Source: Romanomermis culicivorax (taxonomy: Eukaryota > Nematoda > Enoplea > Mermithida > Mermithidae). Taken from it: a stretch of 64,000 nucleotides of DNA. A program made the position numbers and the translations under genes. Positions 15,050 to 53,019 of this stretch are shown here, piece after piece. Position 1 is the first letter of the stretch, and each line of letters opens with the position of its first letter. A model generated the notes under the pieces. That model had not been told where the DNA came from. It did no database searches and saw only the letters and a program-made list of their open reading frames with translations. The stretch lies in contig CAWUHX010000301.1 of NCBI GenBank assembly GCA_963922205.1, positions 62,001 through 126,000 on the forward strand. Direction: 5' to 3'.

Positions 15050-15057
15050 CTTTTAAG

Positions 15058-15380
15058 GGGTGTCACTAATCAGCGGCATCCGCGTGTGGAGGCCGATGGC
15101 GGATATGGTCTAACTGGCGGATGCGGATATTGTCGGCAGATAAATAATCGGTGGATATAAAAGGCAGAATCCGCCTTTTTCGAGCCGATATTGATGTCTA
15201 ATTGCCAGATACAAAAAATGAGGATATCCGCGACTGGCATGTCTAATCGGCGGATATTTTGTTGTCAACCTTCAAATATTTTGTCGTAGCTGTCAACCTT
15301 TTTGGCGGATATGCAGGTCTAATCAGCGGATATCCTGCCGTATGGTGGGGAAATATCCGCCATCCGCAAAATGCAGATAT
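15058..15380 (+). repeat. Element 1 left terminal inverted repeat
   Basis: It begins GGGTGTCACTAATCAGCGG and contains repeated GGCGGATAT and CTAATCGGCGGATAT motifs at short intervals. It aligns in inverted orientation with 26090-26426. Shared landmarks include the TTTTTGGCGGATATGCA and TGTCAACC blocks. The inner edge is approximate. Confidence 0.8.
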
Positions 15381-17699
15381 CAAAAATTTATTATATGCGT
15401 AAATTGTAAAAGGATTGAACATCAATAAGGTTTAGACCGATTAGAACAGATAGAACAGTTTGCTAAGTCCTTGACTTAAACATCAAATAAAGCAGGGACA
15501 TGTTTGATTCCTGTTTAGTTTGTTCAAGTCCTAATGTGTGTTTATCTGTCGAAGAATATAAACATGAAGAAAGCATTTAAACATCATGTCTATGGGAGAA
15601 CATAGAATAAATGCTGGTATAAAAATAAAGTTAGTGAAAGCTGTGAAAGGAATGAACAACCACGAGGTTGGTTTGGGTTTGTGTTCGTCAATATATGATA
15701 GAACAGTCATTAAATCGATGACTTTATATTCCTCTTTGTCCTCTTTGGTTTGTCTATATCCTACTGAGGCTTTTTCCCTCACATGTAAATAAACAGGAGG
15801 GAAGTGTTGAAACATCAAATGTATGGGTTAACACAGAATAAAAGTGTGTCTATTGAAAAACGTCTAAAATGCAATGAACTGCAAAAGGTTTGAACAACCT
15901 CCAGGTTTCAATGAAGGAATGGTTAGGTAAACCATTCAATTTCATTTTTGGATAGAATGATCATTAAATCCACGACAAACCTGTTTTGTAGGTTCAAATC
16001 CTAATGAGGAAATTTCGGGTACATGTATATACGTGTGAAAACATGTGTAATATCATATCTACGGGAAGACAAAGAATGCATGCACTTCTTATTCAAAAAT
16101 GTAGTTGACTGAAATCTAAAAACTACAAATTTATTACTCTTTGAGAAAACATAAACTTGTATATTAACATTGCAAAAATCATGAAATGTCTTCAAAAAAA
16201 TTTAGTGCAAAATGCAAAAGGGTTGAACAACCGCCGGGTCAGATTAATTTTTTCAATATTTCATAAGCGGAAAATGCCAAAATAGGCAAATGATAGAACA
16301 GCTGTTAAATCGTTGATGTTATTTTCCTGTTTGGTGTGTTCAAATTCTAATTATTTTAATTTTTCACAGTATATAGCCTGGACAAAAGTGTTGAAACATT
16401 GTATGTATGGGTTAACACAGAATAAAAGCAAATTTAATAAAAAGTTTGACCTAAACTGTAAAATGATTGAACAACAACAATGAATTCAATAATCCCGGAC
16501 AACATCAGTCGGATGTTCCACATCGAATAGAATGGTAGTTAAGCCTTTGATGTTGGATTCTCGCTTAGTTATGGGATTTTTATTTGGTTGGTTCAATAAC
16601 ATGACAAAGTCTATTGTGGATGTGTATATAAAGAAGAGAAATGAATTGAAACATCAAATCTAGGGGATGACAGAAAGAAAATGTGTATTGAAATGTGTAT
16701 TAAAAAATTTCTCCACGGGTGTCTATCCGTGTATATATTTCTTATCTGGGCAAACAAAACCTGGTTTTATTGCATTTACTGTACGGATGTGGATCATGAA
16801 CTGGTTTTAATGCAAATAATTGAATATGTTTACGCAGCACTTGGTGGATGTATTTTAAGAATTTTCACAGTTATTATGAATTGGTTTCATTGTTTACTAT
16901 TATCTATTATTGAATTGTAAATTTTAATGATCAGTGCAGTTTATTGGTTTTTAATATTTAGACCAGACCAAAGTCCCTAAATGTTATTTGTATGGTATGA
17001 CACATTGCAACTGTTTGTATATAAAAAAATTTAGGAAAAACAGTAAAAGGATTGAATAACCACCACGAAACATTATTGTGATTGCCATAATTGCCAATTG
17101 CCATAATCGGCAAATTGATAGAACAGTAGTTAAGTCGATGATTTTATATTCCCATTTGGTCTATTCAAATCCTGATGAATATATATGTCCTCCATGTATA
17201 TAAAAAAGAGAGAATTGTTGAAACATTGTATGTACGGGTCAACACAGAATAAAAGACGTCTATTACAAAATTATACCTAAACTCCAAAAGGATTGAACTA
17301 CCACCAGGTTGGATGAACTACTGCCTGGTTAGGTATATCATATTAATGATACCATAATCGACAAAGTGATAGAACAGTCGTTAAATCGCCTATAATCCTG
17401 TTTTGTATGTTCAAATCCTAATAAACCATATGGGCAAGATGTATATAAAGATAAGAAAAGTGTTGGAACATCACGTCTACAGGATCGGATGGAATCCATT
17501 AAAAAATTTAACCTAAAATGCAAAAGGATTGAACAAATTAAACTGATAGAACAGTTGTTAAATGGATAATATTAAATTCCTTCTGGGTGTTCAAATCCTA
17601 ACAAGGCCACTTCAGCTACATCTATATAAACATGAGAAAACTGTTGAAACATCATATCTACGGGATAACATAGAATAAAAGCATTTATATAGTCGTATC

Positions 17700-17765
17700 C
17701 ACCCTTTCTATATACCGATTAGGGTTTTACATCCCTAATCAGTGGATATAATCGGCAGATATCAG
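17700..17765. repeat. Internal head-to-head copy of the Element 1 terminal motif (1)
   Basis: CCGATTAGGG and CCCTAATCAGTGGATAT face each other across about 10 bp. They form a palindrome made of the element's own subterminal motif. An inverted relative lies at about 22560-22620. Confidence 0.55.
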
Positions 17766-18514
17766 TTAAACTCATGCCCTGGAATTATGTCAAATTTTAG
17801 AATGTCGTTGTGTAATATCTTTAATTGTTAACTTAATAATTTTAATTTGTTATTAATTGGAAAATTTTTTTGTGCGAAATTTTAAATTGGGTATATGCAA
17901 AAAGTATAGAATTTTGTTGATGTCGAAAAAGAAAGTTGAAAATATATAGGTGTTCATTTCTTATACATACATGATAGAACAGTCATTAAATTTTTGAGAA
18001 CAAAGTTTAGACTGTTCTATTTTTGTAATTTTTCCAAATTTCTTTTTAGTATTTGTAGATATTGTTGTGTAAATTTGGAAGTTATTTAAAAAACTATACT
18101 TTTAAAATGGAATAAGTGCATTTGGAGGTTTGTTAAAAAGCAAAAGATTTGAACAACCTCCAGGTCTGAATGAGCAACGGAGGTAAACCATTAAGGCTCA
18201 TTTTTTGATAGAAAAGTCCTTAAATCCTTGATAATCCTATTTAGTTATTTCAAACCTAATGAGTTCTATCAGCCACACGTATATAAAGTAGTGAAAACTG
18301 TTGAAACTTCAAAACTATGGGACCAAATAGAATAAATGGATTATAAAAAAATTAAGTGTTCTACATTGGAAACTAAATTTAATTTTTAAAACTGTTATTG
18401 TTATTAAATTGATATATAATTGATACTAAACATTTGGGCTGTCATAAGAGAAGCTATAACATAACCAAAATAACCAAAAAAATAGTTACAATTCATATTC
18501 GTTCCACTGTCTCA

Positions 18515-18600
18515 ATATCTGCCTTTTATATCCGCCGATTAGTGTTTTTGTCTCCCTAATCAGCGGATATAATGGACGGATATAATCTGTGCATGTCAAT
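18515..18600. repeat. Internal head-to-head copy of the Element 1 terminal motif (2)
   Basis: ATATCCGCCGATTAGTG is followed after a short spacer by CCCTAATCAGCGGATAT. This is a head-to-head pair of subterminal motifs like that at 17700. It lies within the unit array. Confidence 0.55.
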
Positions 18601-19938
18601 TAAACTCATGTTTCAAATTTTGTTCAATGTTAAAATAGGTTGTTAACCCGTAACTTTGATGTTTCAACAGGAAAGTTGAAAATATATACATCTTGGCCTT
18701 TCCTAGCAGTAGGATAAAACAGTCCTTAAATCTTTGAGAACAAGGTTTATCGTTAAATCTTTGAGAACAAGGTTTTTCTATTTTTGTAATTTTTCGAAAT
18801 TTCTTTTTAATATTTGTTGATATTGTTTTTTAGTTGTTTGTTAATTAATCTATTTCGAAAATTTTGAAATTTTTTACAAAACTAAACTTTCAAAATGGAA
18901 TAAGTGCATTTGTAGGTTTGTCAAACTGCAAAAGGTTTGAACAGCCTCCAGGTCAGCAGACCATTCAAGGTCATTTTTGGATAGAAAAGTCGTTAAATCC
19001 TTGATAATCATGTTTAGTTATTTCAAACCTAACAAGTTCTATTGGCCCATGTATATAAAGTAGAGAAAACTGTTGAAATGTCCCATGTACGGGAAGACAA
19101 GGAAACCTTTGTTAAAACATTGAAAAATACTGATGAATTTCGAATCTTTTAGTATGTTCTATATTGTCTTTGAAAACGTTAAAATTATTCACCTATTTTC
19201 TATTTGAAAAATTCACATATTTTGTCTTTGAAAAGTTCTATTTTGTCTTTGAAAATGTTAAAATTATTCACAAAAAGAATCAACTCTGCAAATCTATTAT
19301 CCATCTCTCTTATTTTGAAGTAAGTGATGCAAATTTGGATGAAGAAGCCAAATTTGCTAGTATTATTTCTGTAGCATGTTGCTGTCTGTCCCCTTTTTTA
19401 TTGATACAAAATATGTACAAAACAAAACAATGAAAATGTACAAAACAAAACTGTAAAAATGTACAACAACTCAACAACTTATGAATATTGACCATACTCT
19501 GTCAGTAGAACTTTTAATCAAGTCTTCAATGATTCTGGTTTTTTGGGAAGCAAATATTCTTCTCAACTTTTGGTCAAAACTCTCATTTCATCAGCAGGAA
19601 TTGCAGAAACTGACAGAATACTGACAGTAAAAAATTGTAAACACATTTAGAAAATAATATTGTCACTTATGGCCTTACCTCACTGTCTCACCAACGCCGC
19701 TAATCTATCCCCTTCTTTCCTGGCATCCTTGTTTCTTTTCCAGGAGGCCCACTCCATTAACAAATGACGTAATGCGCGCACAAGGTATCCGTATGCGTAT
19801 TCCAAAGTCCAGTCATATCGCCAGTTGTATTTGCGGGTCTTCATTATGTAACTGCACATGAATTTGAACATTTGGGCGCTTTTCACATTCTCGCTTATAA
19901 ATTGGATATTGTTTTTGCGCTAGTAATCATACACAGAG

Positions 19939-20371
19939 CATACATGTAACGGAGCTCTGAGGTCTGGGTTGGGTTGGAGCACTTTTTTGGGCTGGGGGTC
20001 AGTAATTCCCAAAATTTTGGGGGGAGGGGTCCCTGAAGGAAAAAAATTCGATTTTTTCATGAAAAATGTCCGAAAACCAGTTCAAAAAGTAGTAATTTTT
20101 ATATAAAAAATGATAAAATATGTACTTATGGCGCAAAGCGCCGACAAAATTGAGGTTTTTGACCATTTTTTGTTCAAAAATTGACATTTTTCATGAAAAA
20201 ATGACATTTTTCAGTATTTTTCCAACTAAAACTATGGGGGTCCCTAGCGCTACCATATGGCTAGCCATTCGATTGGAAAATCCTGGGGGGGGGGGTCGCC
20301 CAATGGCTAGCCATATGGTCGACGGTTTCTGGGGGGGTTCCCATAGCACTCCCCCCCCAATTACATGTATG
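19939..20371 (+). mobile_element. hAT-like MITE copy C (CATACATGTAA family)
   Basis: It starts CATACATGTAACGGAG and ends CCCCAATTACATGTATG. It is flanked by a perfect 8-bp duplication ACACAGAG (19931-19938 and 20372-20379). The length is 433 bp. It is inserted in the 3' part of the helicase relic of Element 1, so it arrived after the helicase cargo was in place. Confidence 0.88.
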
Positions 20372-22555
20372 ACACAGAGTAAGGCTGTCTTGACAAAGGC
20401 CTAACCAAAACTCGAAAAAGGTCATGGCGTGCAGATGGATCCGCACACGATGGCGACCGAGGACTAAAAATTGACAACAATGTAAATGGGAGGTATATTT
20501 TTATGCATAGTTTTATGTTACATATACCTTCAAGTCCAAATTTTTTGGCATATTGGGGATCCTCATTGTGCAAATTTTCCACAAAGTGAGGTAGCCATAG
20601 TTTGTCTCAGAATATGGACAATTTCTTTATTTCACAAGATTCGCCCCTTTTTGCAACATTGGCCTCCAAAAAGCATTTTCGTGTTTCTGTAACATAAATC
20701 TAACAAAATGTGTATGTTGACACAATCATATGGAATGTTTACCTCGCCACAAGTTATCAAGCTTGTGTACTTTTTGGCGAACAAATTCGAGCATCAGTTG
20801 GTGTTTGCTTCCAGGAATGTTAGAAACAAGTATTTCGCCCCAACCAGCAACATAAGTTGTGGGAGGGGTAATGTAAATGGTGCAATTTTCCTTGACAAAT
20901 GCTGGAAGGCAAACAATACAAAATTATGTGATAAGGTGTTCATGAATGCTGATTGTGATTGCATTTGCCAAGGCCATAATTTCTAAAAAAAGTAAATTGT
21001 CAGTAAGGGTGTTAATAGAATGTGAAATTTATGTTTAATAAATTTCTCACTTTGCACAACCGATTGTTGTTCTTCAGATTCAATAGCTCCGATGCAAGGC
21101 TACAACCTCTCGTGACGTAATTGTTCATACTTATCACTGATGTTCAATGTGCACCAATGGGCAATACACCTATAATTGAAGTACTAACTATGCCCAAACA
21201 GTACCAAATTTAAAACAACAGGTGTAAAATTACCATTTGACTAAATTGTGACATTTCTCTCATCCAGGATTATTGTCCAGTTCTTTGCTTACAAAGGTTT
21301 GGCCCTCTTTCAATGAAGGGAACATTGTCACATTTCCTACGATGAATAAAAGGCATTGAGCCGGGCTGATGGCAACATTCAAAACGCTTATAATTTTTGA
21401 GGAATCTCATGGAGAAGTAGGGATTTGATCGAACAATATTGTTTATTACAATATCAGATTCTTGGCCCTCGAAGAAAGCAACATTATTGATTTGTGTGTA
21501 CATTACCTACTATTCTTTTATACTTGAAAACTGTCCATGGTGCCAATTCGAACTCTTTTCAAGTCGTTTTTCATTTGGGTAGGGAGAGGTATCTGTTCTG
21601 TAGATAAGTCCCCCTTTATTGCTTTGCATGCATGGTATTCCACAGTAATTTGACCTCGGTGCTGTAGGAAGTGATGATGACTATATTTTCGTTTTTAAAC
21701 CTTTGCAGGCCGATAAGAGTGGCTGCCAAATTGAAAAGGGCTCTTGCTTCCTGAATGTTTTGTATAGAGGGAGAATTATCCTCCAAGGGAGGTATCTGTC
21801 ATCTGGAAAACCTTTTACATTACTTAACAATAAAATTCATTAATATTAAAATTACCTTTTTTAACACCCTTTTGAATAGAATTCTTGTATCATAATTCAC
21901 TGATCAGGCTTCCAATCTCTGGATGCATGCGATATTGTTCATTCAGTAAGGCATACAGCAAATTCACATTGTGAAGGTGTTCAAATTATGTTTGAGCCTA
22001 GTCCAACTCTTGTGCTTCTTGGGATGTGATGCATGGGCCCAACTGACATGGATCGCCCAATAGAGTAACCTTAATAGATGTATTACAAGTTTAGACATTA
22101 GTGACATTTGTGAGAACTAAAAAATTTACTCATCCGCTAATATGAAGATGCATAAATGGTATGAGCATTGCTGTTTCGGTATCCTGAGCCCCTTCATCAA
22201 TGACGATTAATTTGAAAAAGGTTCCAGTCAATCGTGTGTCAGCAGCTCCATTGCACGTTGAAAAAACTATGTGGAATTTCGAATGTAATAGTAATTTTTT
22301 GTACTTGAACAAAATGGAATCCACCTTCTTTTCCTCCTCCTTCCAGGATCGGGGCTGTACTTCAGTAGAATTCAGTGACGCCATTGTAGTTTGCTGTTAG
22401 GGTAAACATTAAAAATTATACTTTTTAACATTTTTTAAAAATTTTAAAAATTTAAATTTTTTCAAAATTCACTTTTTCCATGTCCAACAACCATAAAAAC
22501 ACCAAAAACAGTCATCAAAAGCAATTTCCTACACCTAGGAGCCCAAAAAAAGCAT

Positions 22556-22625
22556 ATCGGCCGATTATATCCACAGATTAGGGATGAAAAACCCTAAGCA
22601 GCGGATATAATCAGCAGAGATCACT
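22556..22625. repeat. Internal head-to-head copy of the Element 1 terminal motif (3)
   Basis: CCACAGATTAGGG and CCCTAAGCAGCGGATAT face each other. The block is the inverted counterpart of 17700-17765, including its AACTGAT/ATCACTTAGACTC flank. It lies inside the helicase relic, where the Walker A exon would be expected. Confidence 0.55.
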
Positions 22626-23340
22626 TAGACTCAGTTCCTGGAGCCAATTTTGGGTTTTGGACCGTGGAACTACTTCGATTTTATGGTTATGACGAACAAC
22701 TAAAGTAGTAATAAGAACTATTGAAAACTACAGCCCAAATAGAATACTGAGTGCTTACATTTTGGCAGCATTCCTTCGAACTTTAGCATTCCTGTTGTTA
22801 AATTTGGTGGATCAAGGACAAAATCCATGTAACTAAAATGTTTACTGCTCTCACGGAGCATGTTGTTGTTTTCCCTGGTTTCGAGATCCAGACAGTACTT
22901 CATTGTTTTGATGTACTCATTTGAGGTATTGTACCTGAAAGTAAATTACCAAGTTTACATGGTTTTTGTAAACTGTAAGCAAATGGTTTTTGGTCATTGT
23001 TGGTAACTTTTCTGTTTCAGGGGAGACTCCACATTCGGAATTTGTGAATATCTTACGTGGCTTCTTTGCATTTGATGTTTTTGAGTTCTTCTTGTGTTTT
23101 AAATCCTTGACTCACACAACTTGGGAGATAATCGAATGAACACTTGGTGCCATTGAGATCATAGTGTGTTGTGTTGAGGGCCATTCATCGAACATCCTCT
23201 GATTCATCTGTTAGAGGCGGAGGTATCCATAATTCAAATAAATCCTCATCGTCATCATCAGATGTCTGCTCTCCAATCGGCGGCTGAAACATAGTACTCA
23301 TAATAATATTATACATTTGAAACAGAATAAATGATGTAAA

Positions 23341-23412
23341 TGAGTTTTTACTTGAAGTAGCACTGAGTTTTTACTTATGAGTTTAAATGAGTTTTTACTT
23401 GAAGTAGCACTG
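23341..23412. repeat. Short direct repeat
   Basis: The string TGAGTTTTTACTTGAAGTAG occurs twice about 47 bp apart, with a partial third copy between. It lies beside the 5' exon of helicase copy 1. No function is evident. Confidence 0.6.
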
Positions 23413-23529
23413 GTTCACTTATTTTCCTAGCCATCAAACTTTCAATTCGAGAAAATAGGGAATGGTCACTTGAATAAAAGCATAAATGACAATTAGTTGT
23501 AAACCAATTGTTACACAACAGTATCATAA

Positions 23530-24781
23530 TTACCTGAGGCATCTGTATTCCAATAATCCTACGGATTTACAATTAGGAGCTACATGTCCAAGTTGTCCAC
23601 ACTGGAAGCATGTGGGTTGCCTAGGGGTGGTATTGTTCCTGTAAGCATTATTCCTGCTGAAAGTATTGTTACTGAAATTGTTGTAGCTACTCTGTTGTGG
23701 GGGTTGAGGTTTTTGTTTGATCTGCAACTGTAAATCTTTTACTTGTTGTTCTAACTGATGCAAAAGGTCCTGTTGGTCTGTATTTTTGGTCAGGGAAAAG
23801 ATGGGTTCGGGTTTTGGGGGTATAAATGGAAGGGCGTTGGACTTTAACTCATTTCTAAGGATTTGCTGTTCAATGTAAGCTGCTTCGTCTGACATTTCTT
23901 TTAGAGTTGGGAACCGTCTATACTTAATTGCTTCCCTGATTTCGTTTTGCATGCCTTCTACAAAAAGGGGTTTTATGATCATTTCTCGTGCGTCTGTGTT
24001 AAAGTTAGGGTGGGCGAGGGTTGCGAGGTGTTCTAGATCAAACAAGAATTCGGTTACTGTTTCTGATTGCTTTTGTTTTCTCTCGCGTAAAAATTGTTGA
24101 TGTAGCTCATTATCTCGATTGTTTGGGAAGAAGGCCTGCAATGCGATTTTATACTGCTCGTATGTGTTGGGAGGGTTTTCAGAATTGGCTAAACTTGTGA
24201 ATTTTGCTAACGCAGCTCCTCCTAAATGAATCTCTAAACATGCCAGCTTTAACTGTACGTCTGTATCTTTCATGCCTTGAAGTGCCATGAACAGCTCTAA
24301 TTGTTTATTCCATTCACCAAAATGTTGGGTCACGCCGCCCGTGAATACTGTAGGTTTTGGGTAAAAATTATTTGCCATGTTATTACGAATGTTTGCTGTT
24401 CTTAGATCGTCTATTAGGGTAGGGTTTACTGTATTCTGATTCAGTTGTGTGCGTAGAGTACGAAAATGTTCGGAAAATAAATCGTTTATCTGTTCTCTAA
24501 GGATTTCTCCTAAATGATCTTGTGTTTGGTGGGTCATTCTTGGTTTATGCTGGGATTCCTGCTTAAATGCTTCAATTTTTGCTTCACGCTATATTCGTTT
24601 AAATGTATCGCTTAATGTTTCATTGGAGGGGATTTCCAGTTTGCTTTCTACGAATACTGTCTTACTGTAGGGAATAATTACTACTCTATTATCTAATGCT
24701 TCAAAATGCCCGGATAAGAGTACACCTAATTGGGGGCAGGGAGTTCCAGTGGTTAACGGTACGGTACGGTCACCAAAATAT
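23530..24781 (-). pseudogene. gag: Ty3/Gypsy gag, truncated element R1
   Basis: Gag forms the retrotransposon particle. The 335-codon frame 24537-23530 has a retrotransposon-gag core (about residues 60-210, with the KQSETVTEFLFDLEHLA block) and a CCHC knuckle CFQCGQLGHVAPNC near its end. The same frame continues upstream of the first ATG to about 24730, interrupted by one TAG at 24589-24591. The natural start was therefore probably further upstream, and this copy carries a nonsense change. Nothing downstream is recognisable as protease or polymerase, so the element is cut off about 20 codons after the knuckle. The gag is related to that of the element at 29.7-38.1 kb. Confidence 0.85.
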
Positions 24782-24796
24782 GTAACAACCAGATTT

Positions 24797-25557
24797 TGTG
24801 AAGCACTTTACTTTAACCAAACGGACGTTACGACAACAAAACAGGGCGCGGGGGAGACGGGCCATTCGACAATACGGGGCAATATGGATACTAATCGATG
24901 GCTGCTTTGAGACGTCGACAACAATAAACAAAAGAACGAGGTCTCAGCTTGCAAATAATGAACGGGCCTCAGTTTAACTGCTTTCGTAAAAATGACTGCT
25001 TGCAAATATAAAAGGAGATGAGTGCGGTTTGAAAAAACAAAGAATTCAATAATCACCAATAATAATAAAATCACGCTTTGCTTCTCTTTTTATATGACGT
25101 TTTTGGCCACTCCCTGGGCGTCGCAGGAGTTCTTGCTTCTGTCAATCTTCTTCCGCCAATCGTCGCTTCCTGCTTTGCTTTTCATGCTTACTTAGTCACC
25201 CCCTTCAACGCTTTTCTAGTACGGTATGCTTTTCGTGTATTGCTTGCTTCCTACAGTGGGCTTAGCCACACCTCTGTGCTTCTGTGCATGCTTCCTGTAT
25301 CTGTTTCTCTGTGTACACATGTTTTGGTGGGACCATCGCTACCATTGCACTTGAGACTACTGTCTGGTGGGGCTTTTACTTTCTACTGCATGCAGGTGTT
25401 GTTTACGATTTTTATGAGGGATTACTTTAGTCGTGGAATGTGTATTTTAGTGTAGGTTCTAGGGGACCAGCTGCCATTGTGCAAATTAATTGGGGCGTCT
25501 TAATTGGGTCAATAGTGGCTACTGGGGTGTGGGCGGATCAAAATAAAGTACTTCACA
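24797..25557 (-). repeat. LTR of Gypsy element R1
   Basis: The 761-bp block begins TGTGAAGCACTTTA and ends AAAGTACTTCACA. It therefore has TG...CA ends and a near-perfect 13-bp inverted terminal repeat, longer than usual. It lies just upstream of the gag on the - strand, as expected of a 5' LTR. No partner LTR is in the window. I could not assign the primer-binding site with confidence. Confidence 0.75.
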
Positions 25558-26089
25558 TAATTTTACAGGAATGTTTGGGTGTGAATCCCAGACACCCTTG
25601 AGACGATAAATTACTAAATGAGATAATATTTAATAAATGAATATCACATAATGTATTCTACATATTTACAGTACTGTGTTAGCAGGTACGTTAGATACGT
25701 TTTTGTTTGTTTCAAATCCGTTTTACATATCTAGTTACCCGTTCTTGTATATATATTTGTTGTATATATATGTTGTATATTGTATATATTTCTTGTTGTA
25801 CATATTTGTTGTATATTGTAAATATTTGTTGTTGTTGTTGTACATATTCAATTTTATGTTTTTGTATGTTGTATGTATGTTGCATTTTGGTTGTTTACTT
25901 TGTTATTGTTTTTTTTGTTATTCATCCATATGTAGACAAAATGTATAGTAAATTTTGATAAACATTCGAGCCTAGATATTTACACATTACCAATAAACAT
26001 TTGAGCCTTCAGATATATACACATAGCAATAAACATTTTACATATGAATCTGCATTGAGATGGGTTTTTCATCCTTGAAATTAATACTT
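25558..26089. other. Non-coding stretch between the R1 LTR and Element 1 right terminus
   Basis: This is low-complexity TTGTATATATTTGTTG sequence (about 25740-25870), followed by about three tandem copies of CAATAAACATTTGAGCC with intervening ATATTTACACAT (about 25960-26045). No gene is visible. Open frames here come from simple repeats. Confidence 0.5.
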
Positions 26090-26426
26090 AGGATATCCAC
26101 ATATCTGCACTACATATCCGCAGATTAGACATTGTGCAGATGGCCAATATTTCTCTGCCATCCTGCAGGATATCTGCTGATTAGATGTGCATATCCGCCA
26201 AAAAGGTTGACAGCAACAACAACATATTAGACAGTTGACAACCAAATATCCACATATACGCAAAACATATCTGCCAATTAGACATGGAAAAAGCGGATTC
26301 CGCATCCGCGGATTAGACATAAATATCGGCAAAAAAAGAGCGGATATTTATCTGCGGACAATATCCACATCCGCCAATGAGACCATATCCGCATCTGCAC
26401 ACGGATTCCACCGATAAGTGACACCC
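26090..26426 (-). repeat. Element 1 right terminal inverted repeat
   Basis: On the - strand it begins GGGTGTCACTTATCGGTGG and follows the same order of motifs as 15058-15380, with point changes and small indels. The divergence between the arms suggests an old insertion. The inner edge is approximate. Confidence 0.8.
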
Positions 26427-26434
26427 TTTTTAAG

Positions 26435-26569: not shown

Positions 26570-26577
26570 CACTTGCC

Positions 26578-27440
26578 GGGTATGACTAAAACCTGGATCG
26601 GGTTCACAGATCCGGGTCCAGATGGGGTGCCTAAAACCTGGATCACCACAGATCAGCGGATCATGGGTTTTTCTACTTAAACCATGGTTTTAGGTGCCTG
26701 AAACCTGGATCACGACAGATCAGTCCAGTGATCCATATCCGTGGAAAATATGCGTAAGACCGGGATTTTCATCATGGATCACCACCCACAAATCAGGTTC
26801 CAGTGTATTAATTTTTGATCAAGATCAAGATTTTTTGATCTGGATCAAATTTTTTTTCAATTTTTCACCTAAATTAAATTTTTTCGAAATTTTCCGTCAT
26901 GATGAGTAAATTCACACCACATATTCAGATTTTGATCCAGATCAATATTTTTGATCCAGATCATTTTTTTCAATTTTTTACCTACATTAAATTTTTTCGA
27001 ATTTTTCCATCGCAATGAGTAAATTCATGCCATATTTAGATTTTGATCCAGATCAATATTTTTGATTCAGATCAATTTTTTTTCAAATTTTCACCTAAAT
27101 TAAATTTTTTCGAATTTTTCCGTCTTGTTGAGTAAATTCACACCACGTATTCAGATTTTGATCCAAATCAATATTTTTGGTTTTTTTTAATTTTTTTTTA
27201 TGTCGTCATGAGTATTTCATACTTTTATAGGGGAAAAATTCAAAAACAGTAGTCCAGCCAAGATTGTTCATCATATTGGTGTGGTTTAACTCCAGATTAA
27301 CCAATATAATGTCCTACTGTTTGACAATGTAATTCATATTTGGTATATGTATCTGGTGCAATTCATTGAAACATTATTTCTATGGGTTAGAACAAAAATT
27401 TAGCATGTCTTTTTAGTACGAACCGATCCGTGAGATCCTA
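26578..27440 (+). repeat. Element 2 left terminal inverted repeat
   Basis: It begins GGGTATGACTAAAACCTGG. It then has repeated CCTAAAACCTGGATCAC motifs. After these come about 3 tandem units of roughly 115 bp (TTTTGATCCAGATCAATATT, then TTCGAATTTTTC, then GAGTAAATTCACACCACAT), and finally an ACAGTAGTCCAGCC...GGTTTAAC block and a GAAACATTATTTCTATGGG block. The same order is found inverted at 51985-52824. Confidence 0.85.
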
Positions 27441-29480: not shown

Positions 29481-29690
29481 AATAGAAAATGTAAGTCAAA
29501 AACCAGATCAAAAATAAGCAAGTGCAGTCACTAGATCAATACTTTTGGTTGTCAATGCTAAAATAGTTTTCCAACCCATTATTTATATGTTTCAACAGGA
29601 AAAATGAAGATATATTGTAATGTATAGCTGATTTAGGTCATTAGCATAAAAATATTTAAGTTTTTATGATTACATCACAAAAACAATTCA

Positions 29691-30209
29691 TGTTTTCAAA
29701 AAATAATTTAGACATGCAACTTTTGGCATTATGATTTAGTAGATACTATGTCATGATTAAGTACAAAAAAAGTGCTAGAAAATGACGTTTTGAGTCATGA
29801 GGAGGGTCATGAGTAGAACAAAAATTAGTTTAACTGCTATACTTAGCATTAAGTTTAATTAATGAGAGAAAAGTATGAAATATGTCAAAAATAAATTATC
29901 TTAGAAAACGTCATGAATTTCTAGAATATCTGAGAAAATAAGAATATTATATATAAACTTTAAGCAAAATGTATAGTAGAGTTGTTATTTCGAGTTTTCC
30001 TTTCTTGCTGTTATTCACGGTCCTTCACGACATTCGGTTATATATATATTTATTCATATTCATGTACAAATATAAGGTAGGATATGTTATAAATAAATTA
30101 TTAGAAATAACTCAGTTTATAGTCCTTTGGGTATTCTCTCCCTGCATTTGCTTAATCCCAAAAAGAACCTGCTTGTCACAGAGGTCCCCTTGGCCCCAGG
30201 GACATGACA
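29691..30209 (+). repeat. 5' LTR of R2
   Basis: It begins TGTTTTCAAAAAATAATTT and ends near CCCCAGGGACATGACA. It includes a TATATATATATTTATT stretch (about 30040) that could serve as a promoter TATA region, and an AATAAA signal at about 30090. It is directly followed by TAATTTGGTGAGTCTTGG, whose TGG suggests the primer-binding site; the tRNA was not identified. Confidence 0.85.
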
Positions 30210-30435
30210 TAATTTGGTGAGTCTTGGCATTTTTTTTCTCTACATAAAAGAGAAATAACCCTTCTTTATAGGTTTGGTTGTTGAAAGTTATTTCCCTTTT
30301 CTTTGTCTCTTTGGAGTATTTTTCCAATACTTTTGGGAAAATTTGGTTTTAGCAGGTCAGGGAAAGAACATAAACTTTGGAAATTCAAATTTTTGGGATA
30401 AATTTCATTTGGGTAATTAATTTGCTGGGGATTAA

Positions 30436-33966: not shown

Positions 33967-33990
33967 AGTAACAGTTCAATGGAAATGAAC

Positions 33991-36107: not shown

Positions 36108-36379
36108 TCAAAATGCAGACGCACTGTCTAGATTGCCAAACAAATCTAGCAAGCCTATATTTGATATAGAAGTGGATCAGAGCACACACCCACTTATCAA
36201 TACAGTTTTTTATAATGAGACAATAGACCTGAGTGTAATACAAAAACAAGATTCGCAGTTCGCTGAAATTATGTCTACATTAGGGGAAGCAAATGAATCT
36301 GAAAATTTCATCATACAAAACAATATTCTCTACAACGAGGATCAACAGTTAGAGAAAATAGTGGTACCAAAAGTACTAC

Positions 36380-37566: not shown

Positions 37567-38069
37567 TTTAGACATGCAACTTTTGGCATTATGATTTAGT
37601 AGATACTCTGTCATGATTAAATACAAAAAAAGTGTTAGAAAATGAGGTTTTGAGTCACGACGAGGGTCATGAGTAGAACAAAAATTAGTTTAACTGCTAT
37701 ACTTAGCATTAAGTTTAATTAATGAGAGAAAAGTATGGAATATGTCAAAAATAAATTATGTTAGAAAACGTCATGAATTTCTAGAATATCTGAGAAAATA
37801 AGAATATTATATATAAACTTTAAGCAAAATGTATAGTAGAGTTGTTATTTCGAGTTTTCGTTTCTTGCCCTTATTCACGGTCCTTTACGACATTTGGTTA
37901 TATATTATTTATCGATATTCGTGTACAAATATAAGGTATGATATGTTATAAAAACAATTATTATAAATAACTCAGTTTATAGTCCTTTGGGTATTCTCTC
38001 CCTGCATTTTCTTAATCAGAAAAAGAACCTGCTTGTCACAGAGGTCCCCTTCGCCCCAGGGATGTGGCA
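37551..38069 (+). repeat. 3' LTR of R2
   Basis: It has the same start (TGTTTTCAAAAAATAATTT) and a length of 519 bp, ending near CCCCAGGGATGTGGCA. The last few codons of the pol frame run into its first bases. The copy differs from the 5' LTR by scattered point changes and short indels in the TATA-like stretch. Confidence 0.85.
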
Positions 38070-40277: not shown

Positions 40278-42060
40278 TCAAATATAGGCAACCATGTCAA
40301 TAACAACATTATGAATTTTTTCCCTTGATAGGGTGTCCTGCACCACCTTTCCATTTTGGACTAAAAACTGGCCAATTTGGAAATTTGAATCAGCATTTCC
40401 AGCAGGATGTGATTTTGGCTCTACCTGCTTGGGTAGCTGTATGGAAATTTGGCCAAATCGACAGTATTGTAAAATTTTTCCTGGTTGGATTGTTTCTCTT
40501 TGCTGCATTTCCTTTGCAGGCCTTAGTGGAGTGTGGTTGTTGAGATTGAAATCCCCCAGTCCATATTTGGCACGGTCATATTCAATGTTGTAATATTGGA
40601 AAAGGCTATAGAAAGCCAGAACAGCCACATTGATGGGAATTTCTTTCCAAGAAGTCCAGGTCTTGAGGACTTTGTTTGAAACTTTTGCTGGCATTGGTCG
40701 TTACGTCTAAAATGTATAATGTAATTAAATTATAGAAACTGTAAGGAGTTATATAATTTGAATATAATATAGTTTTGAACTAAAGTTATATAATTAAAAG
40801 TTTGTATTTGAAGTATGAGTGCACTTAATCTGGACATGTGTATATAGTATACCTGAGAAGCTGGAGTATAACCCAAGCGGTTCCAACACCCATTTTCCAC
40901 TCCTTTGAATAGCTGGCACAATGGATGAAAAGAAATATTTTTTGAACTTTTCAGGCCAACTTTCACTTAGTTCTTCTGCTTTTTCGGCTGCTAGTTTTTT
41001 GGAGTTGGATTTTAGAATGGAACGTAAATTAATCACTACCACAACATGCAAGTGGTTATCTTTCGGATATAATTCCATAATTTTTTGACTAATGTTTTCT
41101 ACTAAATGACGCCAGCAATAAAGGTGCACCGTTTTTGGCGTCAAATTTCAGAAATCGAATTTGGGGTTGGTAATTATGACGACTTTAATTATCCTATTCC
41201 TAATAGAAATGGGTAGCTGTCAAAAAATTTGCTGAATAAATCCTCAATGGTTTTCCTTAAATTTTTTCATGTATTAGGATGCCTAGTAGAAAAACCGTGT
41301 TGCTGACAAGGCTCTTTTGGCAATAAATTGCCGCTGATGCATAAAAATGGCCCAATTCAAAGGTAGTGTTGTAAAGAATGACAAACGGCTCGCTTAGATA
41401 TTCCATTATTAATTATTAATGATCTCAGGCCTTTCCGGCAACATACACGATACTAGAAAGTCCAGCCATTTGTTCGATGCTCATTATAAACTGATGTTTG
41501 TTCTCAGGGATGAAGGTGTTTAAATTGTGAATGGCATCCTTTGTTGGCCGGAATTTGTTTTGTACCACGTGAAGTACACCATCTAAAACAGTAATTTTAA
41601 TTTTTATCACATTAAAATTTCTAACACTTAGTGTTAGAAAATATTGTAATACTTAAGTTACCAATTTAAATATATTCACCTGTTTTCTATCTCTGCCGTT
41701 TAAAACAGCCTCCAGGCCTGGTGGAGCAGGATTGGCAGTTTTAATTTCCTCGTACAATTGAGAAGGCGTTAGGTTCGGATCTTGTTGCAGTTCGACTTCA
41801 ACCAACTTCTTGATTACAGGAGCATTTTGAATAAATACCTCATCAGTGTTGGCATTGAGGTGCTTTCATTTGACACCATCTTTTTCATCTCCAACATAGT
41901 GGACTACTCCTACAAATAGATGATTGTCCGAAGTCGGATTTATTTGCCTATATTCCATTCTTTTAAAGTTTTTCTTTGATTTTGTATTTGGGTTGCACGC
42001 GACGACCTAGTGTGTTGGGGAGTACCTTGGATCAGACCTTGGAATTTTTCAGACTCCATC
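40278..42060 (-). pseudogene. MULE-type transposase relic of Element 2
   Basis: Read on the - strand, the pieces in order are: TPSQLYEEIKTANP (about 41750), MSIEQMAGLSSIVYVAGK (about 41440), EYLSEPFVILYNTTFELGHF (about 41400-41345), LGILIHEK (about 41270), TVHLYCWRHLVENI (about 41120), a W..KFKKYFFSSIVPAI block ending SGKWVLEPLGLY (about 40880), and the C-terminal SWKEIPINVAVLAFYSLFQYY plus YGLGDFNL (about 40640-40550). These resemble animal MULE-clade transposases with a DTTF.LGDFY motif, a C.RH signature and a YF..GLGEY-like end. The expected DTTF aspartate reads Asn (YNTTF, 41359-41370). Stops and at least one frameshift (about 41270) show it is inactive. The family call rests on remembered motif resemblance, not on a search. 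Confidence 0.68.
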
Positions 42061-42548
42061 ATTTATCTAATTGTAACAATCGCAAAGAAATGATTCTATG
42101 AGAAAGTACAAATATTACTAAAGGTTCATGGACACATAAATAAGGTGACAAGTATATTACTATCTTCTTTGCGGGAGTACGGAAACAGGTAAATGTCTCC
42201 TCCCTTTGGAAATGGTGAAGGTTTGTTGATTAATTGCTCTGCGTTAGCTGAAACTAAAATATATTGTTAGATACAGTTGAAAAATATACAAACAACTAGG
42301 ATTTCATTTAGGATGTAGTTTTAGGAAAAATAAATAATTTGTTTACCTACTAACTTATCTAAATCCCTTGGTTCTAATCTTGATTGTTTGTTTATCAGTA
42401 CAGGAATGGAACATCTTGAAGCTGGCATTTCATCAGTTTCGGATGATGTTGTGATTGAGTTTCTTTTGGATCTTCAACTTGCAATGGTAGACCTGGAGTT
42501 GGCTTGAAGTCATCATCTGAGTGGTATTGGTTTTCATCTGACTCCATA

Positions 42549-45887: not shown

Positions 45888-48800
45888 CCTCCGATCAACA
45901 TCGAAGTGGAGGATGACATTGATGAATTAGATGCTGTAGAAGTTCACAATGATGAAAGCCATGTACCCCAAGAACCCATCAAACAAATTGCGCCCAATAC
46001 TTCCTCGTATGATGATAACAATGTGGAATGCAGTTTCAATTATGAAACTGGATTTGGCACATTTGTGGAACGAACAGTCAGATCATAGGAAGTTGAAAAA
46101 TCATGTAAGAAAGCTGCGTAAGTCATTGTTACTTCGTGATATGAATGTATAGCCAGCATGGTTTTTTTCGGGAATTTCTTTCTGTGCATCACATTGAAGA
46201 TAAAATTAAAAACATGACCAGTATGGAACCAGATTATGAAATGTTTTTTAAAATTAATTACAATTTTGTTTTTAGGTATCATTCGCCGTACAAATACTAC
46301 AATACCTTTTTACACTCGATAAATCAACAAGCCGATGATACTGATAAAATGTTGTTGGCGTTCAGCAAACACTTTCAGTCAATTGACTACTTGCTAGATC
46401 CACCTACATAGGCCACAGGAAAATTGAACTTCACTGGAAAGCTACTCCATTGTGAGAATCATGTGTTTTTAATTTGTTACCTTTCAGTTCTTATTGCAAC
46501 TAATATGCAATATATATCTTTAGTCGTTGGACCGAATGAGAAGATTTAATTGACGATTTTGTAGCTAAGAGGTGATGGCAAGTGGTACGAAATGGATGCA
46601 TATTGCGATGCAACGCTACTCAATTTACCCCATAGTGAGTAAATATGCAGAACTAAATTTAATTAAAACTCTTCCAAGCAATTATTTTTAGACAAAAGCA
46701 AAAATGTATCTGTCGAAATCCTAACGTTTCAAATAAACAAGTTGCAAACATGAATGGCATCGAAACAAGCACCATTTGACCTTGATGCTGAAGATCAAGA
46801 TGATGCAGACAACGAACTGGAATGGGACTAAGATGCAGCCAATGCCCTGGGAAAATTTGTCGAATTAAGTCGCCAACTGGGCCACAAAAAGTGCAACATC
46901 CTTTGGAAAGTAGATGAGACGGTGATGCAAAGGTATTTGTGTATCTAATTAATTACTACGATTAACATCAAACGAGTTTTGATTGTTTGATCGTACTAGT
47001 GTTGAACACCATCATTTATTTAAAACACTAAACTGCCTCAACACCATAAAGCACTTGAGCATGGTGGACTCCAACACCACAATGTGGCGGTTAAAATTGA
47101 AAGAAAAAGAGACGGGCAATTTGTATATTAACAAACCCTCCAGAATGCTGCTCTGACCTCTCAATGAAATGGCACCGCAGATTAGCAAAGCAATTTGCGA
47201 TCTACTGATTCACAAAAAATTTCACGATCCAACAACTACTTGTAAATATTACCATGTTGCCGCAAATCACAACAATGTGTTGGACTCTTCCAAACTGAAC
47301 ACATCTCAAAATAAGGCCATTCACCTTTCAGAAACGATTTATATTTCGATAACACAGGTAGCTACATATATCTAGATTTACAGTTTACAAGTACACCAAA
47401 ACTTCTTTCAATACTCAAACTAAACTTGTTTGTACAGGGCCCCCTGGAACGGGAAAAACATCTACAGCTACTTGTATTATCAGATGAGCATTTTCCATAC
47501 ACAAAGGTCAAAAAATATTGATAAGGGCGCCTTCAAACACTGCCATAGACAATATAATACAAGCACTTTTGAAGAGTGTTGAAAATGCAGGCAATGAAAG
47601 AGAATGCATTCAAAACAACATTGTGCGCCTTACCAGCCAAGCTAAGTATTATCAGCTGAACGCTGATATTGTACCCTACACAATGCGAGCCGTAGCAATG
47701 AAGCCAGAAAATTTGGCATTTTGGTAACAATTAGAAACATTTTAATATACATTTGTTTCATTGTTTTAAGATAGATTATTTTTTCCAATTTTTATCTTAA
47801 CCACAAATATTTAACATCAGCAAACCAAACTGGCGGTAATGCATCAAAATGAAGTATGGTGTTCGACAACAGACACTGCTGACGAAAGAAGAGGACAAAA
47901 TGGCAGATGCTTGCCTATTCAAATATGAAAAACAGCTACTCAATAGAAAATATGGTATTATCTTTACAACTTGCAATTGAGCAGCCAATGCCTGCTTAAA
48001 AACGTCCTTTTTCAAACTGGTATTGATCCATGAAGCTGCCCAGGATACTGAATCAACCAGCTTAATTCCAATTACAAGACTTCGCATAAGTCGAAGAATA
48101 AGTAATCTTTAAATATTTTTCTCGGAAGTGCTATGTTTTGCTTTGATTTTCGTGTTTCCAACTATTGTTTAACCTAATTTTTAACCAACATTCACTCCTC
48201 TTTCAGGTCACCCTTTTAGGCAATCCATGTCAACTAGGACCGTGCATGACTTCCAGAGAAGCAGAACAAATGGGATTTGGACATACCCTGTTCGAGCGAT
48301 TGTACTACATGCATATTCCGTACATGTTATTGAACCAACAATACCGAATGCACCCAGCTATAGGGAGCATAGTCAGTGATTTGATGTACGGCAATCGGGT
48401 ACAAAATTGTACCAAGAAAGGTAACAATGTGCCTCAGTAAAAGGACAATGTTTTAAATGATGTTAGTATGAATAATATTTTACATTTGCTCATTTCAGTT
48501 TTAGAAGATTGCATTCTCCCACTTCCAAAGTCATTTCCGATAATGATGAATGGCTACCCTATCGCTTGGATTCATATTGCAATAGAAGAATCAGCCGACG
48601 AAAATTCCAGATCAATGCAAAATATAGGCAAAGGGATTGCTTGTATCAAGGTGGCCGCTTCGTTAATTGGACAATACAAAATGTGCAGTGACCACATTAT
48701 CATCATAACATCGTACAGCGCACAGGTGAAACAACTATGAGCTAAAATGGACGAAGCTTGTGAATCCATCTTAAATGGCATATATTTGTCGAATCACAGC

Positions 48801-50792
48801 TACTCAAGCAGCCAATTATTCATTGCGGATCTATGTAAAATTCAAATAGGCACTGCAGATGGCTTTCAGGTGGTAAATTAGGATTACTACTTCAATCACA
48901 ATCAAATACTTATGTTGGTAAATGATTTTTACAGGGACAAGAATCCGACATAGTCATCTATGACATCGTGTGGTCAAATCAATATCTGACCATGGGATTT
49001 TTGGAAAATTTTAAATGTTTAAATGTGGCGATTAGCTGAGCTCCATGCTTGCTTATTATCGTTGACAATGCTACAATGTTTCCATCATTGGAAACAGGAT
49101 TGTGTTTCATGGTTAACAAACATCAAATCAACACTGAGGGCGGACAACATTGGCGTAAAATAATAAAATAGTAAGACATGATTGATTCAATATGTTTATA
49201 ACCATAATTTTATTTTAGTATATTTCAGTGCACTTTGTAATTTTGTTCCATTCAATGAAATGTTAATGTTTAGGTGTATTAGTCATCGTTGCATACTCGA
49301 TGTAGTCGGCAATGAAATATCGCCTCCGTTTGAAGCCACTTGGCCTTGCATAGGCGACAAACACGAAATGGTGTTGGTTAAAAATGAGACAGAATGATTT
49401 ATATCAATCATTTACAAATTTCACAATTGCATTTATTTGTCTGGTTTTAGAAAAGATGTTGATGCAATATGCACTGACCGTTGGCATACACCAACATTTA
49501 GTCTATGAATTTCATCACGTCGTATTGCCAATTTTGGTCGAAAATCAATGCCATGTGTACATGGCTCCCGTGTCCACCTATGTTGCTGGTTGGGCTGAAA
49601 TTGTTGTGTCAGACATACAACAGAGACTCCACGACCACATTGTCAGCATAATTTCGAACACACTGCAAAATTATGACAAAATGCGAGTCTGTAGGTAGTA
49701 TTAAATGAGACATGTTATACGATTTTTTCTTTATTTTCTGTATTTCCCATCACAGTTAGATTTTTTCCATGACAGTTCATACATTTTTCATTACAGTTAC
49801 ATTTTTAACAGCAACGAGATGTTGTTTCGTTTGTCTATTTATGGATGTGTTTTTAATGATTTTGAGACATTCGTAAATTGTTTCTTCTAAATTTTTTTAA
49901 AAAATTTAAATTTTTCTTTTAAATTTTAAAAAAATTGAAAAAGTTTTAAAATTTGAAAATTTTGGTTTCAAGGTGTTCCCCTGACATTAGTGAGTAGAGC
50001 AAACAAGTTCCCAAAGGATTTTCGATGTTTTTGAGTTGGAAAATGAAGTGATCCGTGGGTAGCCGATCTGGGTTTTAGTTGTGCACAACTAAAACCTGGA
50101 TCACTTCACCATGAATAACTCATTTTTTAAAGTCTAAATTTGCGTTTAGGGTTTCAGAAACTTGTTTTCCTACGTTTTCAAGCATGCCGGACATTTCTAA
50201 ATTGTTTTTAAAAAAATTTAAATTTTTTTCAAAAATTTTAAAAAAATTTTAAAAATTTTAAAATTTCGAAATTTTGGTTTCAAAGTTTTTTCCTGACATT
50301 AATGAGTAGAGCAAACAAGTTCCCAAAGGATTTTCGATGTTTTTTGAGTTTGAAAATGAAGTGATTTCATACATTTAATCCACTATTTTGTAATAAATTC
50401 ATCAATTATTTCAGTTATTTTGTGATGCATCATTGTGTGGCATATACATCTACGCCACGATATTTTCTGATTGATGGTGGGGCAATTGACCAAACACCCC
50501 TATTCCATTTACAAAGAATGTAAGAAACACAATATTCAGTTGATAACTGAAGATGGAACCATGGCCTTTGTGCATGAATTTATGTGCGGATATTTGAGGA
50601 TGACGCGAGGTTATAGACCAAAAGAACAATGGAGCCTCAAAATGGCCTACAATTATTTCGTTGACTGCTTGAAGGACCTATTGACCAAATGGGCATCGTG
50701 GATTAAAAATCAAGAGGCAAGGAAGTGGGCCGATGAATTGGCCAATAAAGCCCATCAAATGGGTATATACATCTGGATGGACATATTTTATT
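45888..50792 (+). pseudogene. UPF1-like SF1 helicase relic, copy 2 (Element 2 cargo)
   Basis: This is a spliced SF1 helicase in decay. It has an acidic exon starting PPINIEVEDDIDELD after a TAG acceptor (45888), a 1B-like block SKHFQSIDYLLDPPT (about 46370), and Walker A GPPGTGKT (47438-47461). These are followed by Ia-like APSNTAIDNI (about 47530), motif II as HEAAQ (48029-48043, expected DEAAQ), motif III GNPCQLGP (48219-48242) and motif IV QYRMHP (48339-48356). Later come IIIITSYSAQV (about 48705), GQESDIVIYDIV (about 48940) and motif VI NVAIS followed by TGA (49037-49039) where the arginine is expected. The C-terminal module has STYVAGWAEIVVSDI (about 49575) and the tail LTKWASWIKNQEAR (about 50680). 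QYRMHP is typical of the UPF1/SMG-2/NFX1-type group. Stops in most exons make it a pseudogene. The Element 1 copy aligns throughout. Confidence 0.82.
49890..50345. repeat. Foldback block with head-to-head Element 2 terminal motifs, copy 2
   Basis: This is the inverted relative of 39396-39790. At its centre (50066-50102) CTGGGTTTTAGTTGTG and CACAACTAAAACCTGG meet around TGCA, flanked by GATC motifs. Symmetric AT-rich arms surround it, each with ATTTTGGTTTCAA and a GTTCCC or TTTTCC edge. It lies in the interval between two helicase exons, presumably in an intron. Confidence 0.65.
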
Positions 50793-50794
50793 AG

Positions 50795-51984
50795 TTTTTG
50801 TACTTTTTCGTTATTTTTTTTGTTATTGTTACTAGTTTACCGGTGTTCCGGGTGCTGTTTTCATTTGTATTTGATTTTTGTACATACTAGTCCACAGCAA
50901 TTTTTCTTAAAAGTAAAGTAAGTTTCCCACTTATATTGACTGATGGGCACACTCTACAGTGAACTCTACCGTGAAAATTCGTTTTTAATATTTTTTTCTT
51001 AAAATTAGTATCCCACCACTACATATATAAATTCATGGACAAGAATAACATACAATACAAACTAAAAACAAGTGCCAAATAGTTGTTCTAACTCATAGAA
51101 ATAATGTTCCATTCAAATGCAGGGAATACATATACCAAACATGAATATTGTTGTCAAACAGTAGGACAACCATCGATTATGTTAAACTGGAGTTAAACCA
51201 CACCAGTCATAAAATCGGAAATTATTAATTTCCAGGGATTGACTACTGTTTTTGAATCCCATTAGAGTATTTTTTAAATAAAATTGACAACTATCTACAT
51301 TCAACAACATTGTTATGCATTGTGGATACACGTCAGATCAGTCTAGGCCCGGGTCAGTCTAGGCCACTGCAAACTAAAAGGACATGCTAAATAATTGTTC
51401 TAACCCGTAGAAATAATGTTCCATTCAAGTGCAGCAGATTCGTATAGCAAATGTGAATAATGCTAACAAGACAGTAGGTCCGCTCTGTTATTCTGTCGTC
51501 AAATGACACTCATCGAAAAGCTGAAAGCAGCTTTGAAATGCTCAGGCTGAAGAACTAAAAGCAAGAAGCAGGTTCAACTACTGTTTTTGCACACTTTTGG
51601 CATTTTTTTTTGCACACCATTGTGTATGCCTTTATGGTTGTTTTTGACCATAACATTAATCAGATCATGTCGGATACAACCGATATACAACAGATCACAC
51701 TACAAACAAATAAGACATGCTAAAAATTTGTTCCAACCCGTAGACATAATGTTTCACTTAAATCCAGTGGATACATTATGTCATCGACATAAATGCTAAC
51801 AAGATAATTGGACCAGTCTATTAATCTGTCGTTAGACCACACTCAGGGAAAAGCTGTAAGTGGCTGGTTAAGCCAAAAAGCGATAAGCAAATGGCTGGTC
51901 CAAATTATCTTTTTTTCTTTTTTAAATCTTTTTTCCCATTTCCCTCCATTGTGTTATGTGTATGCCAGATCAGACAGATCACAC
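50795..51984. repeat. Subterminal repeat region of Element 2
   Basis: From about 51000 there are three to four diverged units, each with AACCCGTAGAAATAATGTT, a TGCTAAC/ACAGTAG block and GTTAAACC. These are inverted relatives of the 27250-27450 block and of the GAAACAT/GGGTTA part of the tRNA-like units. No gene is supported. Confidence 0.6.
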
Positions 51985-52824
51985 TACAATGCTGGATCAG
52001 ACGGATCACACTACAAACCAAGAAGACATGCTACATTTTTGTTCTAACCGGTAGAAATAATGTTTCACTCAAATCCAGTGGATACATATAGTCATCATCA
52101 TAAATGATGGCAAGACAGTAGAACAGCATGTCAAACTGACGTTAAACCACAAATTATTGAGCAATCAGATGCTCTATCTTCAGTTGACTACTGTTTTTGT
52201 AAAACCGTTTTTTATTTGATCTTGATCAAAAATACTGAATCAGTGAGGTGAAAATAGTCTTCACGAAGAAAAAATTCGAAAAAACTTAATCTAGGTGAAA
52301 ATTTGAAAAAAAATTTGATCCGGATCGAAAATATTGATCTGGATCAAAATCTGAATATGTGGTGTGAATTTACTCATCACGACAGAAAAATTCGAAAAAT
52401 TTTAATCTAAATGAAAAAATTTAAAAAAAAACATGGTCTGGATCAAAATCTGAATATGTGGCGTGAAAATACTTATCACAACAAAAAAATTCGAAAAAAT
52501 TTGATCTAGATCAAAAATTTTGACTCGGATCAAAAAAAATTGATCCGGATCATACAAATCTTGATCGCGATCAAAAATTAATATATTGGAACCCGATCTG
52601 TGGGGGGGGGTGATCCGTGATGAAAACCCGGATTTTAGGCGTATTTTCCACAGATCTGGATCACCGGACTGATCCGCCGCGATCCATCGTAATCCAGGTT
52701 TTAGGCACCTAAAACCATGGTTTAAGGAAAAAAACCCCAGATCTGCCGATCCGTGGTGATCCGGGTTTTAGGCACCCGATCTGGATGCGGATCCGTGGAC
52801 CCGATCCGGGTTTTAGTCATACCC
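51985..52824 (-). repeat. Element 2 right terminal inverted repeat
   Basis: Read on the - strand it begins GGGTATGACTAAAACCCGG and has the same motif order as 26578-27440: the AAAACC/GGATC terminal block, the GATCCAGATCAAT tandem units, the ACAGTAGTC block and the GAAACATTATTTCTA block. Differences are point changes and short indels. The inner edge is approximate, because related subterminal units continue inward to about 51000. Confidence 0.85.
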
Positions 52825-53019
52825 AACTTGCCCAGTAAGTAATCACATGCAGGGTTGATTAATGCAAAAATCAGGATATTATCAATCATAGCTCGCCCAA
52901 AAAACCATCGGCCGATATGTAAAAAAGTCAATTATCAGCCGATGCTAATACATCGATCATTCCCTATCTTCATTGGGAAACTACCGAGAAAATTTTATTT
53001 TTGAAATCTATGTAACTAG

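Follow-up and report, generated by a model that had tools for sequence, protein, structure and literature searches.

The 64,000-nucleotide window analyzed here, which lies within contig C301 of the 359-Mb assembly of the nematode Romanomermis culicivorax, harbors two adjacent elements, Element 1 (E1) and Element 2 (E2). They belong to the Mutator-type (MULE) DNA transposons, each being a copy from one of two sister families. Both elements contain a gene for a UPF1-like superfamily 1 (SF1) helicase. Since this gene was found at a similar place in many copies and has been under purifying selection, it is best regarded as an integral gene of the element and not as chance cargo, and a MULE with an integral helicase is very likely. 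The more comprehensive explanation, namely, that E1 and E2 are dead copies of MULEs that kept the helicase as an accessory protein, is likely as well, at a somewhat lower degree of confidence.

E1 extends from position 15058 to 26426 (11,369 bp, with the ends GGGTGTCAC...GTGACACCC) and E2 from 26578 to 52824 (26,247 bp including a nested retroelement, with the ends GGGTATGAC...GTCATACCC). The gap between them measures 151 bp, or 135 bp without target duplications. The terminal inverted repeats (TIRs) of E2, at 26578-27171 (plus strand; covering most of a 113-bp tandem repeat at 26813-27179) and 52216-52824 (minus strand), are 80% identical when positions 1-594 of E2 are compared with the opposite end. 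Those of E1, at 15058-15373 (plus strand) and 26130-26426 (minus strand), are shorter and patchy, with 82-86% identity in pieces. Both pairs contain iterated words: GGATC/GATCC occurs 7 and 9 times in the outer 240 bp at the two ends of E2 (shuffled controls: mean 0.5, maximum 4), and for E1 the outer 330 bp hold 22 and 19 CGGAT/GCGGA-type words (shuffles: mean 1.1 and 0.8, maximum 5). An initial annotation of this DNA had described inverted termini starting with GGGT, motif-iterated TIRs, paralogous helicases with the UPF1-type motif QYRMHP and a spacing of about 135 bp; the coordinates of the termini proved exact for both elements, the word counts lie far above the shuffled controls, the helicases are present in both, and the spacing is right when the duplications are excluded. 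A DNA alignment of the left ends of E1 and E2 was tried and none was obtained, and the likeness of their termini is confined to the first dozen bases. The kinship of the two elements therefore rests on their genes and layout.

Both families are present in numerous copies. A search of the genome with the E2 terminus gave at least 162 matches (40 scored of 285 candidates) and one with the E1 terminus at least 44 (40 scored of 227 candidates). The pattern GGGTANNACTAAAACCCGGATC, representing the E2-type terminus, was found at 141 places (67 forward and 74 reverse), and its reversed control at none on either strand; 100 of these positions, covering contigs up to C194, were used further. When 20 end pairs were read, 10 had a perfect 9-bp target duplication without fixed sequence, 3 a near match and 7 none. 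In a further ten pairs, among which E2 itself and a C1 copy were repeated, perfect 9-bp duplications flanked C174 and the E1-type copies C294 and C405, imperfect ones were seen at C59 (8/9) and C28 (7/9), and C21 (twice) and C197 had none. The E2 family was recently active in this host genome. The flanks of E1 (CTTTTAAG at 15050-15057 and TTTTTAAG at 26427-26434) and of E2 (CACTTGCC at 26570-26577 and AACTTGCC at 52825-52832) match at 7 of 8 bases each; the initial annotation had noted these flanks as 8-bp duplications, but the true length, as judged from the genome-wide copies, is 9 bp, so that the window flanks are probably aged versions. Two full elements 104 kb apart on contig C45 (C45:559575-582469 and C45:686907-708804; L081-L084) have a crosswise 9-bp match, in that the 9 bp to the left of the first element, TCCTCAAGA, are identical to those on the right of the second; ectopic recombination is one explanation suggested by this pattern, mobilization of the whole 149-kb stretch as a single unit another.

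The transposase was best studied in a whole copy on another contig, C2:2987960-3010634, referred to as C2 (22,675 bp), which has a TIR of 614 bp with 93.7% identity and aligns, with gaps, over its whole length with E2 in blocks of 75-88%. Its transposase model comprises 748 amino acids (aa) on the minus strand and has DDE, CxxH and SWIM features. The motifs YDTTF, ITDREF, YCWRH and SESFN align with those of relatives and provide the DDE residues and a CxxH between the second D and the E, a signature of MULE transposases according to the available text of PMC9587614. Five of six relatives of this transposase contain PF10551, with a best E value of 2.5e-56. The TIRs of C2 and the 9-bp duplications, which fall within the 8-10 bp range and have the length usual for the superfamily, are also Mutator features. 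The transposase, the duplications and the CxxH/DDE signature together place both elements in the Mutator superfamily, and the proposal that they represent a new type of transposon is not upheld. Other assignments were considered and rejected: a hAT- or KDZ-type element, prompted by the 8-bp duplications, does not fit a duplication length of 9 bp; a Helitron is at odds with the TIRs and the 9-bp duplications, Helitrons not being known to have TIRs or target duplications and carrying a Pif1-type helicase; and the TTAA duplication of a Kolobok with RecQ, a member of a helicase superfamily different from that of the UPF1-like SF1 enzymes, was not seen, the 9-bp duplications having no fixed sequence. 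Chance inverted repeats were rejected as well, the ends recurring genome-wide with duplications.

Helicase, transposase and TIRs were found to occur together in many of these copies. A 352-aa helicase query gave at least 262 matches in the genome (115 scored of 320 candidates); among the matches listed, many had near-equal scores and a 463-aa open frame. For 40 listed copies of the QYRMHP exon on contigs C1 to C194, correctly oriented ends lay within 40 kb on both sides in 21 cases, on one side in 12 and on neither in 7, as judged with 100 positions of the GGGTANNACTAAAACCCGGATC pattern and 13 from the E2 terminus search (chance about 0.7% per side). Conversely, 21 of 28 end pairs enclose a helicase match among the matches listed. 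In nine copies of 21.9-24.2 kb, the helicase exon is situated 14.7-16.6 kb from one end, and the remaining pairs, 17-49 kb in length, differ. Transposase-gene DNA was present at the expected position in all ten helicase-bearing copies sampled (ten 401-bp stretches, 88-98% identical), the DDE core being covered in eight and the preceding exon in two. In the E1 family, the E1-type copy C28 has kept a decayed transposase and, of the helicase, only the N-terminus, and E1 itself has kept the helicase body with a gag-like piece in the transposase position; combined, they reproduce the divergent arrangement of two genes seen in E2 and C2.

The initial annotation had held that E1 and E2 descend from a common ancestor and that the helicase belongs to the element. 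Common descent is borne out by the gene order and by helicases that match also outside their core, and the assignment of the helicase to the element by its similar place in many TIR-bounded copies together with purifying selection. Two findings that the same annotation had listed as speaking against its view were encountered in part. TIR copies without a helicase exist (7 of 28 end pairs among the matches listed, and C174), and they are as would be expected of non-autonomous derivatives; the element C174:166828-178322 (L069, L070), an 11.5-kb E2-type copy with a perfect 9-bp duplication, had no match to the helicase or transposase open reading frames (ORFs) of E1 and E2. As for helicase paralogues outside TIR elements, 7 of the 40 listed exon copies had no listed end within 40 kb. 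One of these, on C162, does have an end that is one base off the pattern. For the helicase copy on C47, the 901-bp stretch 1467000-1467900 has no element DNA, but the spacing seen in C2 would put the right end near 1466.6 kb, just before it, so that this copy may still have an end. The view itself is left standing by both findings.

As to the identity of the helicase, its best relatives of solved structure (PDB) are UPF1, followed by SEN1 and IGHMBP2/SMUBP-2. The core and the fly UPF1s share 33-34% identity in an alignment covering 42% of the query, and ZNFX1 cores score far below UPF1 (2.3e-19 versus 1.3e-46). In a tree of 53 rows (51 of 120 listed proteins, with host UPF1 left out), its support beside UPF1 was only 42 on a branch 2.5 long, which leaves that placement unsupported. 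The C2 helicase model lies on the plus strand, divergent from the transposase, has intact core motifs and comprises 1,352 aa if two basic ORFs upstream are counted and about 1,089 aa if they are not. A Pfam scan of the 1,089-aa model, the N-terminus of which is uncertain, revealed no UPF1 CH domain (PF09416) at E values up to 0.1 and no NFX1-type zinc fingers as in ZNFX1, and no listed family at E <= 0.1 had its best stretch outside the helicase core. None of 527 candidates for the C-terminal region reached E <= 0.001. The possibility that the E1 and E2 helicases are simply copies of host UPF1 or ZNFX1 was rejected. A comparison of C2 with E2 gave ratios of nonsynonymous to synonymous substitution (dN/dS) of 0.34 for the helicase (1,056 codons, 13 more being excluded for stops) and 0.25 for the transposase (582 codons, 8 more excluded), and purifying selection has thus acted on both. 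Given that E2 is dead, these values probably understate the constraint on the living lineage.

These data are consistent with a presumed autonomous form that is about 22.7 kb long and bounded by TIRs of some 0.6 kb. On one strand it would encode a DDE transposase bearing a SWIM zinc finger and, after it, a PHD-like part; the UPF1-like SF1 helicase, spliced and roughly 1,100 aa in size, would be encoded in divergent orientation on the other. The transposase would bind the iterated terminal words, cut at GGGT and insert the element with a 9-bp stagger. The helicase would be an accessory protein retained because it is helpful to the spread of the element, and it was probably, if less surely than the overall explanation holds, selected for that purpose. 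It would most likely act on the element's own nucleic acid during mobilization of a very long element, by opening or repairing the ends or by restarting synthesis in the gap; such help at the DNA level is plausible but tentative. That a UPF1-like helicase is essential in a two-component MULE machinery, permitting efficient moves of more than 20 kb or a switch to a replicative route, is unlikely. A partly replicative route in particular, with the helicase essential for unwinding during copy-out or peel-off and the MULE transposase serving as end-cutter, would account for an element-encoded SF1 helicase in a very long element of high copy number, but ordinary 9-bp duplications and helicase-less copies fit plain cut-and-paste, and this route appears improbable.

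The main rival to this function is an action at the RNA level. The helicase may shield element transcripts, for example, against nonsense-mediated decay or small-RNA silencing, and its closest solved relatives, UPF1, SEN1 and IGHMBP2/SMUBP-2, are helicases of RNA metabolism; moreover, MuDR transposons with an anti-silencing protein (Vandal) or SET genes are named in the available text of PMC12730594. However, neither the CH domain of UPF1 nor NFX1 zinc fingers were found, which makes docking to known RNA-decay partners doubtful, and the C-terminal part is without relatives found, with no listed Pfam family centered outside the core. Such a counter-defense is possible but rather doubtful. It is quite unlikely that a host gene of the UPF1 family was captured by a common ancestor of the two families and then carried along unused: MULEs are known to capture gene fragments (Pack-MULEs, in the available text of PMC6431247) and helicase-less copies exist, but the dN/dS of the helicase is low despite E2 being a pseudogene, many young copies have kept the gene, introns included, in a similar position, and it is present in two diverged families. 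That two unrelated elements, or host UPF1 paralogues flanked by inverted repeats by chance, lie side by side would agree with the unalignable left ends and the likeness of only a dozen terminal bases; against it stand paralogous helicases that match beyond the core, the shared gene order, the copy number and the genome-wide recurrence of the ends with duplications, leaving it with hardly any credibility.

Several observations weigh against dead MULE copies with a retained accessory helicase. The C2 transposase itself had no Pfam match, only its relatives having one, the fold match obtained has a high root-mean-square deviation and a middling Z score, and the match of C2 to PHD, in a further gene or gene part, is under the curated cut-off. 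C2 has no matching 9-bp flanks, as is the case for 7 of the 20 end pairs read. Its gene models were computed without transcripts, with the uncertainty at the helicase N-terminus noted above, and about 0.35 kb between the first two helicase exon matches is unlike E2, so that an interruption of the helicase gene at this point is possible. Damage is also seen among the sampled copies, L127 having lost the first catalytic D to a change and L128 containing a stop; not all copies are therefore intact. The existence of helicase-less copies means that the helicase is not needed in cis. Finally, all copies come from one genome, and the role of the helicase in transposition is read from sequence.

The two window copies are decayed in different ways. 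The initial annotation had noted neither the inactivation of their helicases nor the decayed E2 transposase gene nor the nested retroelement. The E2 helicase gene (45888-50791, plus strand) is a pseudogene of twelve exon matches with stop codons; GPPGTGKT and QYRMHP are both preserved, and the joined pieces match AAA_11/AAA_12 (Pfam). The E2 transposase gene (39913-42547, minus strand), opposite to the helicase, has stop codons and an N in place of the first catalytic D, and no match to the PHD exon was obtained in its region. An 8.4-kb long terminal repeat (LTR) retroelement (29690-38062, plus strand; LTRs at 29690-30202 and 37550-38062, 95% identical) is nested in E2 and is not part of the transposon, which measures about 17.9 kb without it. 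Its ORFs are, by eye, gag-, glycoprotein- and pol-like. In E1, the helicase gene remnant (19650-23208, minus strand) retains QYRMHP and matches the E2 gene across many exons, and internal repeats match as well; it is inactivated, the Walker-A exon of C2 being unmatched and motif VI reading SPAQ in place of SRAR. A gag-like ORF of 352 aa (23533-24588, minus strand), with the helicase N-terminus on one side and the right TIR on the other, occupies the spot where the transposase would be expected. It has a zinc knuckle above its cut-off, a Ty3 capsid match below its cut-off and no visible LTRs, and is probably a retroelement piece; both a remnant of such an element and a captured gag are conceivable.

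A number of further features were observed. A repeat at 19939-20371 within E1, 82% identical to 3794-4213 outside it and also matched in the C174 element, is probably a further small transposon inserted into E1. Within the retroelement nested in E2, the gag-like and pol-like ORFs are separated by two ORFs that by eye resemble a membrane glycoprotein (32385-33966), which is an unusual gene order. Positions 4227-4743 of the C2 element (minus strand; L076-L077) contain frames that by eye resemble a cysteine protease (NHF...CDD), with no Pfam match to one. Outside the two elements, a 1,871-aa open frame at 57120-62735 (minus strand) is, by eye, a gag-pol of Ty3/gypsy type, and is adjoined by a 98-bp tandem array (54957-57110) that is partly repeated at 63600-64000.

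With Mutator/MuDR elements, including animal groups such as Phantom (available text of PMC6446971), the E2-type element shares a DDE transposase with CxxH and a SWIM finger, long TIRs and 8-10 bp duplications; a relative, P0003, has PHD and protease domains. The E2-type element differs from these MULEs in its length of about 22.7 kb and its divergent UPF1-like helicase gene, and the word "helicase" does not occur in the main text of that survey. The closest precedent for a TIR element carrying a helicase is that of the Koloboks with RecQ, KolobokH and Kolobok-1_CCri (available text of PMC9587614), which combine a DDE transposase with a helicase of their own (encoded on the complementary strand in one of the families) but have RecQ, TTAA duplications and a Kolobok transposase. 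Helitrons likewise encode a helicase, as a Rep-helicase fusion; in its available text, the giant-transposon review PMC6431247 names helicases in connection with Helitron and Teratorn, and more generally with giant viruses. The SF1 core is shared with UPF1 (NAM7, RENT1), from which the element helicase differs in the CH domain not having been found, in long N- and C-terminal parts for which no relatives were found and in being a mobile multicopy gene. The literature searched, including the available text of PMC6446971, PMC3169594, PMC6431247, PMC9587614 and PMC12730594, yielded no description of a MULE with a UPF1-like helicase, a weak absence given that subscription papers and Repbase reports mostly fall outside the coverage. 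The MULE superfamily and TIR transposons with other helicases are thus known, and what appears to be new is a UPF1-like helicase beside a MULE transposase.

DNA transposition is stated to lose much of its efficacy once the cargo exceeds about 6 kb (available text of PMC6431247). Being 22.7 kb long, recently amplified and equipped with a helicase, this MULE offers a natural setting for asking whether an element-encoded helicase relieves the length limit or, alternatively, whether UPF1-like enzymes are recruited by transposons as a means of evading RNA surveillance. Both questions look testable, since there are young copies in which the helicase frame is open over a long stretch.

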